Shown: piece by piece, positions 14,117-28,777 of the stretch
How the letters are laid out: each line of letters begins with the position of its first letter
How positions within the stretch are numbered: the stretch's first letter is position 1
Virus record (IMG/VR): IMGVR_UViG_3300030380_002559
Location: 1-53,718 of that record
Length of the DNA stretch: 53,718 nt
Origin: a virus
Strand: one strand, 5' to 3'
The notes under the pieces: generated by a model
What the model was told of the DNA's origin: nothing
The model's database searches: none
The model's input: only the letters and a program-made list of their open reading frames with translations
Made by a program: the position numbers and the translations under genes

Positions 14117-15595
14117 TCAATAGTATACAAAACTTTTGAGTTTGTACTCAAGCTCGTCGTCCTCATAATCTGACGGCTGGCGGATAAACCCACCTTGCCG
14201 AAAGCGTAATAGGGCTTGTGTCGTGGAATCGACCAAGTCGTCATGTTCTCCGTTAGGGAATTCGCACAATTCTTCGACAAGTTCTTCCGCGAACCTTGTT
14301 TCTGGAACCCAGACCAACCCGGACTCAAAAATGGGTGAAACAGCGTTAGTGCGAGCAATCTTATCATTCCCTCTATTAGGCGAATAATTTTGTACGGGTA
14401 TACCCATAGCCCGTAATTCTTGCGTCAACGGTAAACCTGACGCTTTTGACTCGATAATAACTGAATCAGGATCCCAGTGTATATAACTTTCGTAAGCGAC
14501 CTGTTTTAGTTCCGGAAAATCATAACGATCTTTGATCGAATCAAGTAAAATTATGTTATATTGGTCGGTTTCTTCGTTACGGAAGACGCCCCAAGTCGTA
14601 ATCGCGCTAAAATCAGCGGTTTGTGACTTCAAAAACGCCGTATCGTAGCTTTGGATAATATATTCAGGCGTTGGCGGGGCTACTTTATCCCAAATTTTGA
14701 TCCATTCGCGTTGAATTATCGCGCCTTCGCCGCCTGTAGGCTCTTGCATCCACTGCGCAGCCCATTTTTGGTGCGGCAGCGAGGCTCGAATACCCTCTAA
14801 TTCTTCAATTTTCCAAAATTCTGGCCAACAAGGCGCACCAGACGGCATAATTGCAGGAAATTCAATAACTTCCCATTGGTCAGCCTTCGGATCTAAAGCC
14901 TGTGCCTTCATTAATTGGCCTGTAAGATCCTTTTTTGACCACCTTGTCATGACCAAAACGATAGTTCCACCCGGTTGTAGACGCTGTCGGGGACCAGATG
15001 TATACCATTCGTAGGCCATATCCATGGCCGTTTCGCTCATCGCGTCTTGTTCCGAGTGCGGGTCGTCAATAATAAGAACATCAGCACCACGACCAGTGAT
15101 CGCACCTCCGACACCAGACGCAAAATACTCCCCGCCCTTCGATGTTTCCCATCGTCCTGCAGCCTTGGAATCCGCTCGCAATGAAACATCTTGAAAAACT
15201 TTCTTATAATCGTCCGTATCTACGAGGTCACGAATTTTTCTACCAAAACGCACGGCTAGTTCGCCAGTATGCGTTGCCTGAATTATCTTTAAATCAGGTT
15301 TAAGGCCCAAGAGCCAAGATGGAAGGAAATACGACGACATTTCTGACTTCGAATGTCGTGGCCCCATATTAATAATTACGCGCTTTAATTCACCACGCGC
15401 AATACGATTAAACGTCTGGGACATTTTACGATGGTGCGCACCCTCAATAAACGAAGGCCACATCGTTTTGACATAAGTTAAGAAGTCCTCGCGCGATTGT
15501 TTACGGACTTCACGTTGTTTTAGCTCTTCGGCGATAACAAACGCAAGTTCAGCTTTTTCGCGAGGTAAGTGAGAAAAGTCGGCGTTATCGAGCAT
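14117..15595 (-). CDS. terL: Terminase large subunit
   Basis: 492 residues. ATPase: Walker A GPRHSKSE at 78-85 and Walker B VLIIDD at 173-178, with TRWS downstream as coupling motif. Nuclease: D318 in IIQSYDTAF, then VIIESKASG, and HDDLVDS near the C-terminus, the acidic triad of the RNase H-like domain. It packages DNA into the prohead through the portal. The start is ATG at 15595. TerS lies about 3 kb upstream rather than adjacent, with genes of unlike composition between. Confidence 0.95.
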   Translation of the reverse strand: MLDNADFSHLPREKAELAFVIAEELKQREVRKQSREDFLTYVKTMWPSFIEGAHHRKMSQTFNRIARGELKRVIINMGPRHSKSEMSSYFLPSWLLGLKPDLKIIQATHTGELAVRFGRKIRDLVDTDDYKKVFQDVSLRADSKAAGRWETSKGGEYFASGVGGAITGRGADVLIIDDPHSEQDAMSETAMDMAYEWYTSGPRQRLQPGGTIVLVMTRWSKKDLTGQLMKAQALDPKADQWEVIEFPAIMPSGAPCWPEFWKIEELEGIRASLPHQKWAAQWMQEPTGGEGAIIQREWIKIWDKVAPPTPEYIIQSYDTAFLKSQTADFSAITTWGVFRNEETDQYNIILLDSIKDRYDFPELKQVAYESYIHWDPDSVIIESKASGLPLTQELRAMGIPVQNYSPNRGNDKIARTNAVSPIFESGLVWVPETRFAEELVEELCEFPNGEHDDLVDSTTQALLRFRQGGFIRQPSDYEDDELEYKLKSFVYY

Positions 15596-21363: not shown

Positions 21364-21535
21364 CTTTCAAGGACTCCTCTCGTTTTTTCAAGTTACAATG
21401 GACCGCCCTGTTGAAAGTGTAGGGCAAGGTTTCGCTTCTCGCAAACATCGCATCGACGAACTGGTCAATCTCGATATAAGTCAAGCGACTGACGACCTCG
21501 GCGAGATCGTCCATGAATGGGTCTTTATCAGTCAT
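21338..21535 (-). CDS. Small acidic hypothetical protein
   Basis: 65 residues from the ATG at 21535 (MTDKDPFMDDLAEVVSRL), for which GGAGAGG stands upstream; the longer frame to 21568 has no such site. All helical, charged, no membrane segment. It overlaps both neighbours by several bases. No family recognised. Confidence 0.6.
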   Translation of the reverse strand: MTDKDPFMDDLAEVVSRLTYIEIDQFVDAMFARSETLPYTFNRAVHCNLKKREESLKDEMLNMSR

Positions 21536-21818
21536 CCGCCTCTCCAAAGAAGATCGCGTTATGAACACCGACCGGTTTATTACGATCGAGCTTCAACTTA
21601 CCGTCGACCCAATCATAAAAGCCATGGATCTGTGGCATTTTGTATTTACGCCCTTTTAAGACAACGACTTGATCAATAACTTTTGGATCGCAGATAAAAC
21701 CATCGTTAAATGATTTTACGAGGTATGCTTCAAGAGCCTTGATCGAAGGACATATCGGTGTTAGCCAATGACCATTAGTACCGTTAAAACCAGTCGAATG
21801 AATCTGAGCTGAATACAT
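21528..21818 (-). CDS. Hypothetical early protein
   Basis: 96 residues with an alpha/beta pattern: STGFNGTNGHWLTP, then SIKALEAYLVKSFNDGFIC, VIDQVVVLKGRKYKM and FYDWVDGKLKLDRNKPV. No family recognised. It follows a palindromic promoter (21.84 kb) and begins a chain of small overlapping genes down to 20994. Confidence 0.65.
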   Translation of the reverse strand: MYSAQIHSTGFNGTNGHWLTPICPSIKALEAYLVKSFNDGFICDPKVIDQVVVLKGRKYKMPQIHGFYDWVDGKLKLDRNKPVGVHNAIFFGEADD

Positions 21819-21834
21819 TTTTTTCTCCTTTACA

Positions 21835-21885
21835 GTCTTACTATATTAGTATGCTGGAGAACAAAGGCGAATAATATCTCAAAAT
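21835..21885 (-). promoter_or_regulatory. Promoter with palindromic -10 region
   Basis: The minus strand contains TTGAGATATTATTCGC, then CAGCATACTAATATAGTAAG; the latter has the TACTA...TAGTA palindrome (21838-21854) shared with the other early promoters. The spacing to TTGAGA is too long for a standard -35, so only the -10 part is well supported. It serves the gene starting at 21818. Confidence 0.5.
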
Positions 21886-21898
21886 AATGGAAGGTGTT

Positions 21899-22002
21899 CC
21901 GTGGCTTTGGTGGAGCATGTATTAAGGCAGACCCACCTTTGCTTAGTTCTATCCTCCTCTCAAGCAAGCCCGATGGGGGTAAGGATAGGCCAAGAGCCAC
22001 GG
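21899..22002 (-). ncRNA. Candidate structured RNA, three-way junction
   Basis: The ends pair: CCGTGGCT at 21899-21906 with AGCCACGG at 21995-22002 (8 bp, extended by TTGG/CCAA). Inside, CTATCCT (21949-21955) pairs perfectly with AGGATAG (21982-21988), and GGTGG (21909-21913) with CCACC (21933-21937). Closing stem plus two internal arms make a three-way junction. No gene covers it. The strand is assigned from the direction of the flanking genes; it could be the other one. No known RNA class was recognised. It lies between a 45-codon ORF and the promoter at 21.84 kb. Confidence 0.5.
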
Positions 22003-22011
22003 CCTTGTATT

Positions 22012-22149
22012 TCACTTTGTCTTAACCGGATGACGTTGGTGTTCCACACGGCTCTTACGAGTACCGTCTACCTCGCTCTTTTTACGAAGGATCGCTTTCG
22101 CGATTTCGCCGTGGTTGTTCGAGGTAGTCACAAGCTCCACCATTACCAT
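22012..22149 (-). CDS. Small basic 45-residue ORF
   Basis: It begins MVMVELVTTSNNHGEIAKA and ends HQRHPVKTK, with one amphipathic basic helix (EIAKAILRKKSEVD). The ATG at 22149 has GGGGTG ten bases before; a second in-frame ATG lies at 22143. Its codon pattern looks like its neighbours. It is alone between the 22259 gene and the RNA candidate. Possibly a small regulator; not a known family. Confidence 0.45.
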   Translation of the reverse strand: MVMVELVTTSNNHGEIAKAILRKKSEVDGTRKSRVEHQRHPVKTK

Positions 22150-22258
22150 CTTTTACTAACACCCCAACGCGTCAGTGGTCTTAACTCAGCTGGGACGAGG
22201 TCGAACCTTTGGCACCCCGCCCACGGAAAGGAATTTTGTCTGCCCCCCCTAACCTGAA

Positions 22259-22486
22259 TTAAACATCTTGTTGTTCCAGAACAACTGAACCATCGCCATA
22301 GTCTTTGCGACCTAATTCAAGGTTCCAGCCAACATTATATTCAGAAATCTCCTGCGGAGACAAATCTTCTGATTTGATCGTGTACCCCCGCCCATCGATA
22401 TAGTCGACACGATGGGGGTTATAGGGCCGACCGCGATAACGGTCAGCCCCTCCACGGTCATATGGTGAACCGTGGGCTTTATTCAT
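22259..22486 (-). CDS. Conserved small phage protein (HGSPYDRGGAD motif)
   Basis: 75 residues. NKAHGSPYDRGGADRYRGR, then PHRVDYIDG and LSPQEISEYNVGWNLELG, form a mini-family common in marine phages: a His/Gly/Tyr-rich N-terminus and an LTxEEIxxYxxG segment. Its first codons overlap the end of the 22483 gene. Function unknown. Confidence 0.75.
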   Translation of the reverse strand: MNKAHGSPYDRGGADRYRGRPYNPHRVDYIDGRGYTIKSEDLSPQEISEYNVGWNLELGRKDYGDGSVVLEQQDV

Positions 22487-23079: not shown

Positions 23080-23120
23080 TCATTAACTATTATTATAGTA
23101 AACTAACAAACTAAAGAAGT
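23080..23120 (-). promoter_or_regulatory. Palindromic promoter of the regulator gene
   Basis: On the minus strand GTTTACTATAATAATAGTT contains a perfect TATAAT; it belongs to the TTACTAT...ATAGT family. It sits between the terminator at 23150-23176 and the gene starting at 23034. No convincing -35 was found. Confidence 0.5.
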
Positions 23121-24397: not shown

Positions 24398-24445
24398 GGT
24401 TTACTATAATAATATAGTATAGGGGGCAGGGTTTAGTCAAAAAAG
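24398..24445 (-). promoter_or_regulatory. Palindromic promoter
   Basis: On the minus strand TTGACT is followed by 18 bases and TATATT within CTATACTATATTATTATAG, an extended palindrome (24401-24420). Located between the 24462 gene and the 24379 start. Confidence 0.6.
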
Positions 24446-26676: not shown

Positions 26677-26989
26677 CTTGACTAGTCCTGTTCCGCATCT
26701 CGGCCTCTACAAGAAAGAGATACCGACGTAAGTCACTGATATCGTCGACAAGACCCTCGGGCCGACGATCCTCATCCATAGCAGAAAAAATATCGTAATG
26801 ATGACCTAATACCTGTTTTTCAATACGATCCCATTTACGCGCCAACATCATGAAGGCACCTACACCGCCGCGCTGTTTCCAACTATCTCCGTACGACTCT
26901 TCTGCGCGTGTAAGCCCCGCGCAATCTTCATCAGCGATATTTTCTACGGTCTGTAGAATTTTACTTTTTTCTTTCGAGCCACTCGACAC
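26669..26989 (-). CDS. Nmad1-like (DUF1599-type) small protein
   Basis: 106 residues. EESYGDSWKQRGGVGAFMML, then ARKWDRIEKQV, and EGLVDDISDLRRYLFLVEAE follow the layout of DUF1599, called nucleotide modification associated domain 1: a YGxSW motif, RKxxRI, and a helix with acidic pairs. The family is tied by context to modified bases; its activity is not known. It overlaps the TS-like gene by 29 bases and the polymerase by eight, so it sits inside the coupled chain. Confidence 0.6.
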   Translation of the reverse strand: MSSGSKEKSKILQTVENIADEDCAGLTRAEESYGDSWKQRGGVGAFMMLARKWDRIEKQVLGHHYDIFSAMDEDRRPEGLVDDISDLRRYLFLVEAEMRNRTSQGD

Positions 26990-27953
26990 AGGCTTTCCTC
27001 CAATCCGGTGATTCTATTTCACGGGCCTTATCTACAGCCTCGTTAATCATTTTTTCTTTCCAGAGCCACCAAGCCTCGACCATAGGTATTGCAGTCTTCG
27101 GAAAGATTTGGTTTTGGTATCCCACATGGGATTCTCCGTTGTGGAGCCAGTCGAAGAAGAGACAGACCTCGAGATCGAACTCTTCCCATTTATCGACGAG
27201 CGGGACCGGATAGATTTCATACGCTTCATAAGGGTCTGGATGAATCCCTTGAGGAAGTTTTTCATCGAGCGGCCTCCATACGTCTAAATATACATGCGGA
27301 TTACTACTGACTTGATAATAACGCCCAAGACCCATCCCCATGCAACTAGCTAAATATTCATGAACCATACTGAAGTGAACAGCATTCGCACCGTACATAC
27401 CCCAGATCAAATCATTCGATCTGTTCGTTACGGTCATATCTAAATAATAACCAAGGCTGGCTGGTCGACCGCGTAAGAAAACTTGCGTATTACAAGGAAC
27501 GTCCTTGGATGGAGAACCAAGGTCTTGAGTACAGTCCCACATCTGAAGTACAGCACGGCGGTCTAATGGGTTCTTGCGAAGTAAATCAATAACGGTAGAT
27601 AGCTGGTCACGTCCAAACCATTCAGTCCAGCGGTAACCGTAAGCACCATTTACTAGAACACCGTCATCCGAAAAGTCAGCCATCTTCTTAGCAAACATTG
27701 TCAGAGTCTTTAGATCTTGCCGACCAGCGATCATCCACAGCCCTTCAATAAAATGAAAGAAAGGGTTACAATTACGTTCTGCACTAAATAGAACACGCTC
27801 ATCCGGTCGCTCATAAACAGTCGTGAGTGGTGTCGGGAACGACAACACCGGACCATTGCGCGAGTCCGTTTCTAACAACTGACTACTCTCCCGCAAGTTC
27901 ATAACTGCGATCTGGAAAACCTCATTGACGTTTACGCCTTGTATAACTTTCAT
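26961..27953 (-). CDS. Thymidylate synthase homologue, probably dUMP hydroxymethylase
   Basis: 330 residues. The TS fold is shown by R60 and N61 with FFHFIEGLWMIAG (N-terminal part), the catalytic C154 in DVPCNTQVF, R178-S-N-D in TVTNRSNDLIWGMYGAN, and HVYLDVW near 220. The sequence NDLIWGMYGANAVHFSM, with one residue more than the DxxxGxPFN of cellular TS, is the form found in phages that make 5-hydroxymethyl-dUMP. I therefore favour hydroxymethylation of dUMP with methylene-tetrahydrofolate, without reduction. Ordinary thymidylate synthesis remains possible. The ATG overlaps the stop of the upstream gene (ATGA). Confidence 0.85.
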   Translation of the reverse strand: MKVIQGVNVNEVFQIAVMNLRESSQLLETDSRNGPVLSFPTPLTTVYERPDERVLFSAERNCNPFFHFIEGLWMIAGRQDLKTLTMFAKKMADFSDDGVLVNGAYGYRWTEWFGRDQLSTVIDLLRKNPLDRRAVLQMWDCTQDLGSPSKDVPCNTQVFLRGRPASLGYYLDMTVTNRSNDLIWGMYGANAVHFSMVHEYLASCMGMGLGRYYQVSSNPHVYLDVWRPLDEKLPQGIHPDPYEAYEIYPVPLVDKWEEFDLEVCLFFDWLHNGESHVGYQNQIFPKTAIPMVEAWWLWKEKMINEAVDKAREIESPDWRKACVEWLERKK

Positions 27954-28777
27954 GGGTACTTTCCTCTTGGTGCGCCTTCTCCATTACGCACTCTTTCATA
28001 TTTATCAAACTCGCAAAGACTATGCTCGATATCGCGCATCTCTAATCGCGGTAGGAAATCTTTAGCTAAATATTCGGATGAGCATAGTAAAAGTTCGTGC
28101 ATCTCCTTCGTAAAATTATGCTTACGGCTCTTAAAGTTCAGAGGTCTACCGTATATGCGATTCAGACCGCGCATAGCACCGGGACCAGCATTAGCCCATG
28201 TATAGATGTCATCGGCCTCATCAAGAAAGTGTGTATGACGCAAGTCAGTAATTATTTCATATGACATGAAGGCTCCTAGGTACGGAAATTGCATAAACAA
28301 GTTCCATGAACCTCGGAGGTTGTTCGAGCGGATATCGTCGGCGAGTGTTTTGCGAAGGGGCCAAATGTTGTTAACGCACCAGATAACCCCATCGACCTTG
28401 TCCATTCCGTCGGGAGTTTTAATTATGTACCCACCGGTCACATATTTAGGTTGCTTCTTGATTTCTTCTCGGGCAATCTCTGGGTTCCAATCGACATGGA
28501 GATTATGGTCAAGAAGTGTTTGGCCTGTCTCTATTAGATTAAACCAACGAAAGATAACCGTGGCCATGAGAACATCGTCGTCCCCATTCAAGGGATCGCG
28601 CATCTTTTCCCTAAACCAAACGGTTGTCTTGTCGTTTTCTCTAAAGGGATTAGTAAAGCGATAGGTCTTTAAAATCTCGTCGTCAGTCCAATGGTTGCGG
28701 GAGAGGCCCATATCCTTCTTCAGAAAGATACGGTGCCTCTCCTCCATCCACCAAAAGAACCGTTCGATCGATTCCAT
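27950..28777 (-). CDS. 5-hmdU DNA kinase helical-domain (HMUDK_hel/aGPT-Pplase) protein
   Basis: 275 residues, all helical. WTDDEIL at 30-36, RFTNPFREND at 40-49, GGYIIKT at 115-121, LGAFMSYEIITDL at 167-179, ANAGPGAMRGLNR at 195-207 and CEFDKYERVR at 255-264 match, in order, the family named alpha-glutamyl/putrescinyl thymine pyrophosphorylase or 5-hmdU DNA kinase helical domain. It acts on 5-hydroxymethyluracil in DNA in known hypermodified phages. The HhH-glycosylase-like fold is known of the family. No P-loop is present in this protein. Coupled on both sides (TAATG and ATGA). Confidence 0.85.
   Translation of the reverse strand: MESIERFFWWMEERHRIFLKKDMGLSRNHWTDDEILKTYRFTNPFRENDKTTVWFREKMRDPLNGDDDVLMATVIFRWFNLIETGQTLLDHNLHVDWNPEIAREEIKKQPKYVTGGYIIKTPDGMDKVDGVIWCVNNIWPLRKTLADDIRSNNLRGSWNLFMQFPYLGAFMSYEIITDLRHTHFLDEADDIYTWANAGPGAMRGLNRIYGRPLNFKSRKHNFTKEMHELLLCSSEYLAKDFLPRLEMRDIEHSLCEFDKYERVRNGEGAPRGKYP

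Follow-up and report, generated by a model that had tools for sequence, protein, structure and literature searches.

A covarying structured RNA encoded between two genes in a group of marine phages

A structured RNA of ∼360 nt is encoded between two genes of a marine phage, on the minus strand, which also carries the genes of this region. The window analysed is the whole of a 53,718-nucleotide viral record (IMG/VR IMGVR_UViG_3300030380_002559), and the inferred RNA gene occupies positions 21890-22249 (ends approximate), from a 5′ G run through the block after helix E, at the same place as in relatives. It is flanked by the stop codon of a small gene (22259-22486) on one side and, on the other, by the promoter-like block that belongs to the gene at 21528-21818. 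The other members measure roughly 210-420 nt. Their layout is that of a conserved core with a variable periphery, as in large structural RNAs. The core is made up of a 5′ strand, hairpin A, a middle domain that differs in length between members, a joining segment that hardly varies and, at the 3′ side, a three-way junction of helices E, F and G. We regard the RNA structure itself as almost certain. The strand was assigned because gene-sense sequences give better folds than the opposite strand in all alignments, and because one G-U pair of hairpin A is kept in 21 of 21 sequences. G-U cells outnumber A-C cells 38:1 in the hand-placed strands, a ratio that is partly a product of strand choice and was not relied upon.

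The hairpins originally spotted in the window are the 3′ third of this longer RNA, forming the three-way junction at 21899-22002 (minus strand, as are all RNA features below). Helix E (CCGTGGCT at 22002-21995 with AGCCACGG at 21906-21899) closes hairpin F (21942-21994; CTATCC/GGATAG, 21988-21983 with 21954-21949) and hairpin G (21909-21937; GGTGG/CCACC, 21937-21933 with 21913-21909), whose loop CCUUAA (21922-21927) is invariant in the alignments. The arms quoted in the first-pass annotation are all present in the sequence, and its central proposal of a structured phage RNA with a three-way junction stands; its boundaries, its TTGG/CCAA stem and its neighbouring 22012 ORF do not. The element runs on past 22002 to about 22249, and TTGG/CCAA is not a conserved pair, TTGG sitting instead in outer helix F (CTTGG/CTAAG).

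The argument that such nested stems are rarely met by chance fails for one sequence, as 8-bp arm pairs enclosing two separate perfect hairpins occur nine times in the window against a mean of 2.6 in dinucleotide shuffles. RNAfold, proposed as a check, was run on both strands and gave −39.6 kcal/mol (z −2.7) for the minus strand and −39.8 (z −2.3) for the plus strand; fold energies of the relatives are mostly modest (z about 0 to −3.9). Because such single-sequence statistics are weak evidence, the proof of structure is comparative.

A polymerase search returned 56 viral loci. The gap at 21830-22258 is conserved as DNA in four of them (L002 and L003, 73% over 476 bases; L004 and L005, 76% over the 3′ part), and L010 and L009 have a diverged form of the RNA in the corresponding position. 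Three relatives with a polymerase 89% identical (L006, L008 and L027) lack the RNA and carry different sequence there. In an alignment of six sequences made with MAFFT and not fitted to structure, 93% of cells pair and 15 of 27 pairs show changes on both sides, a result reached by none of 500 shuffles; register-slid controls were 34-42% paired. Helix E, for example, reads CCGUGGCU/AGCCACGG in the window, CCGUAGCU/AGCUACGG in L004, CCACGGCU/AGCCGUGG in L010 and CUAUGUGU/ACGCAUAG in L009.

A covariance model built from these six sequences (R1) finds four contigs not used in building it, namely L087, L088 and L089 (E 2.8e-19; helix E CCACAGCU/AGCUGUGG) and L090 (5.1e-21). For the wider family, a motif-only pattern with the unpaired motifs ACAAGGC, AAAG, CCTTAA and RAA fixed (the final C of ACAAGGC being base 1 of helix E) gave 31 matching stretches in viral contigs. 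Sixteen of the new pattern loci match R1 (E 1e-15 to 4e-18), and the other nine have no R1 match. The phages carrying those 16 loci have homologues of the same neighbour genes and, where it is on the contig, a polymerase 54-57% identical to that of the window. The six-sequence model thereby recovers 20 further contigs in all (E 1e-15 to 5e-21, values that are rough). Membership stands at 27 contigs, all from one group of marine phages, with the RNA at the same genomic place in each and DNA polymerase identity down to 54%.

An alignment of 18 distinct sequences was fitted to the structure and hence leans towards pairing; in it 92.9% of cells are paired and both-sides changes occur at 20 of 27 pairs (93 cells), a level attained by 0 of 500 shuffles, with a covariation score of 0.569 versus 0.221 for shuffled alignments and 33-36% pairing in register-slid versions. 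The stem pairs, whose absence from relatives would have counted against the RNA, are thus conserved and strongly covarying, and they are kept by compensatory change, as expected of a structured noncoding RNA. This covariation, far above the shuffled and slid controls, and the out-of-sample recovery of 20 contigs together support a structured RNA.

Beyond this group, neither R1 nor a model designated R2 produced a convincing match in the other polymerase relatives, in the Pelagibacter phages HTVC023P and HTVC027P, or in 023Pt_psg01 and DSL-LC04; a 16.9-bit match in HTVC027P was taken as chance. No additional members emerged from earlier pattern scans over contigs of viruses and genomes or from a blastn search of GenBank phages, and none of the pattern matches in bacterial genomes had a model match. 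Among the records compared, there was no gene whose presence tracks the RNA.

At the 5′ end of the RNA, the strand GGGGG (22245-22249) likely forms a long-range pseudoknot with CCCCC in the loop of hairpin F (21975-21979). The pairing reads GAGGG/CCCUC in most members, GGGGG/CCCCC in the window and AAGGG/CCCUU in the L118 group, the general form being 5′ RRGGG with loop CCCYY and the fit being poorer in L002 and L117. We consider the pseudoknot likely rather than proven, since the variants reflect few evolutionary events and the A's of the L118 group are part of the upstream stop codon. An alternative in which the 5′ G run forms a hairpin with CUCCUUUC was partly supported at first; it is disfavoured by the L118-group A, which breaks that pairing and fits the pseudoknot.

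The near-invariant, unpaired CCUUUCC (22225-22231) is followed by hairpin A (22193-22222; GGGCGGGG/CCUCGUCC, with GUUYRWC in the loop), which shows G-C to C-G and A-U changes. Hairpin B (22155-22176) is peripheral and absent from some members. The middle domain (22029-22150) consists of helices C and C′ around helix D (22120-22127/22068-22075), which is missing in L009, and a GUAA-loop hairpin (22052-22061); it is as small as a 5-bp mini-hairpin in L117 and extends well beyond 100 nt in L088, the window and L002. Changes on both sides occur at 7 of 7 pairs of hairpin B in five sequences, and C and C′ covary in eight of eight sequences compared, counts that lean towards pairing because the strands of B, C and C′, like those of the pseudoknot, were placed by hand; re-dealing the 3′ strands among sequences never attained the observed number of pairs. 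The joining segment AAAUACAAGG (22003-22012), with ACAAGG invariant in two alignments, leads into the three-way junction. The invariant unpaired segments are CCUUU, ACAAGG, AAAG, CCUUAA and GGAAYAC. Within the RNA of L009 (8867-8877 of that contig) there is also CACCTCCTTTC, which we take to resemble the 16S rRNA 3′ tail of Alphaproteobacteria; in most other members CCTTT is the only part of it present, and the anti-Shine-Dalgarno-like CACCUCCUUUC of L009 is common to part of the family only.

In none of the records scanned did an Rfam family reach its gathering score over the RNA, and a search of the window with all families at E ≤ 10 gave no credible match, in line with the earlier remark that the element resembles no known class. 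ARAGORN and Rfam reported no tRNA or tmRNA over it. A preQ1-II match at 21816-21883 (22.2 bits against a gathering score of 47, E 0.33) is below threshold, overlaps both the promoter-like block and the ribosome-binding site, and was taken as chance. Short look-alike blocks seen by eye, together with a pseudoknotted core, are reminiscent of bacterial RNase P RNA. However, this identity was rejected: RF00010 matched none of five records (the window and four relatives) at E ≤ 10, while 11 of 14 control genomes gave a match, and the P4 helix with its two conserved segments was not found by eye in the alignments.

GOLLD is a structured phage RNA without known function that has marine examples and often lies near tRNA genes; its 3′ part is conserved and its 5′ part less so, its length is often above 800 nt, and it assembles into a 14-mer cage (PMC12286853). 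ROOL is likewise phage-encoded, without known function and often near tRNA genes, and is pseudoknotted (PMC12286853). The RNA described here shares with GOLLD its marine phage setting, a tRNA neighbour and a conserved 3′ part with a variable 5′ part, and with ROOL its phage origin and, probably, a pseudoknot. However, at ∼210-420 nt it is smaller than ROOL and below the usual length of GOLLD, is matched by neither family's covariance model in Rfam, and has so far been found in only one marine phage group. We class it as a new family of the GOLLD/ROOL general kind, a member of neither and unrelated to them in sequence. Other structured marine phage RNAs revealed by comparative analysis include manA and wcaG, probable regulators of particular genes, and PhotoRC-II, which is tied to psbA (PMC2864571); here, in contrast, the neighbouring genes vary, and no Rfam match was obtained. 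Such an RNA is unmentioned in the literature searched, a partial coverage that includes the main pelagiphage genome paper (PMC9599517).

The genes around the RNA bear on its role. The ORF at 22012-22149 was tried as a coding gene and rejected, its reading frame not being conserved; the relatives carry indels of lengths not divisible by three and have no corresponding frame. The next gene's promoter-like block, TTATTTTGAG...ATACTAATATAGTAAG (21836-21888, minus strand), follows the RNA directly and is not counted within it, as similar blocks occur without the RNA in L006 and L008 and, in the window, at 23135-23102 (TTATTTTG...TTTACTATAATAATA). The earlier idea of a cis element of the 21818 gene is unlikely, since the downstream gene differs among L009, L088, L090, L122 and L128 and the promoter-like block separates it from the RNA in the members examined. 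Upstream, a tRNA-Leu(UAA) gene intervenes between the neighbouring gene and the RNA in L004 alone among the relatives (14503-14591 of that contig), and another small gene lies between the 22259 homologue and the RNA in the L117/L130/L120 group. Because the RNA keeps its place between the early genes and the next promoter in all members while both neighbours change, an independent RNA gene is favoured over a cis element of a single gene, an arrangement that would still be compatible with a cis role in transcription.

Several features of the surrounding DNA deserve mention in their own right. The near-palindromic, promoter-like motif TTTACTATAATAATA/ACTAATATAGTAAG recurs at 23102, 21850 and 20802 (minus strand) and at 24418 (minus) or 24400 (plus), in three cases with T(T/A)ATTTTG 30-60 bases ahead; it is possibly a phage-specific promoter or operator. 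All members keep the small protein of 22259-22486 (minus strand), which bears the motifs HGSPYDRGSADRYYGR...PH and GW...KDWG and had no match in a Pfam search; we presume a resemblance to ribosome modulation factor. At 26961-28777 (minus strand) a thymidylate synthase-like protein stands beside one with a 5-hmdU DNA kinase helical domain (HMUDK_hel, E 8e-41), a pair that suggests hypermodified thymine in the phage DNA.

Our preferred reading, held with slightly less than even confidence when trans action is included, is that of a processed, independent phage noncoding RNA. It would be transcribed as the tail of the operon starting near 23102, released from the operon transcript by processing, and act in trans during infection as a stable RNA, with the invariant unpaired segments most likely serving to bind a macromolecule of the host or the phage; a ribosomal target is only a guess. 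A regulatory phage RNA, as the first-pass annotation proposed, is possible. Against a trans role, no promoter of its own was recognised and an intrinsic terminator sought after the RNA was not found, it is missing from the close relatives L006, L008 and L027, and its constant place also fits a cis role or vertical inheritance. A bolder version, which we advance tentatively and with appreciably lower confidence, is that these phage RNAs form a novel class, compact and pseudoknotted, which would be catalytic or act in trans on a core host machine (ribosome or RNA polymerase) and would predate the divergence of these marine phages.

It is also conceivable, though rather unlikely, that the RNA is a cis-acting transcript element at the end of the early operon and ahead of more genes in the same orientation, serving antitermination on the polymerase or transcript processing or stability. 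Antitermination has an example in the put RNA of phage HK022. The fixed place between two transcription blocks, with a promoter-like block and no terminator found after the RNA, would suit such an element; the fold, however, is larger than known put elements, and the intervening tRNA or small gene and the varying downstream genes argue against it. A role in replication, for instance as an origin transcript, or in packaging, as a counterpart of phi29 pRNA, is improbable. The RNA does lie between the replication and terminase genes, ∼2.7 kb before a probable terminase small subunit gene, and phi29 pRNA also contains a three-way junction, but Rfam, which includes the pRNA family, gave no match, and close relatives with near-identical terminase lack the RNA. 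A self-cleaving or otherwise catalytic RNA seems equally improbable: a compact, pseudoknotted core that carries invariant unpaired segments and is surrounded by a variable periphery would fit one, yet it matches no catalogued ribozyme, the RNase P model was negative with working controls, and no cleavage site was recognised. A chance arrangement of hairpins, which the near-chance frequency of the pattern in one sequence and the modest z-scores of the relatives might have suggested, is scarcely credible, being refuted by the 18-sequence covariation and the out-of-sample recovery.

Few large structured phage RNAs without known function, such as GOLLD and ROOL, have been described to our knowledge, and the present one adds a family of its own, whose secondary structure is well supported. 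At 214 nt in the L117 group its core is small, and close relatives naturally differ in having or lacking the RNA, which makes its function testable. Moreover, it illustrates that an intergenic gap apparently holding a small ORF can contain a conserved RNA gene.
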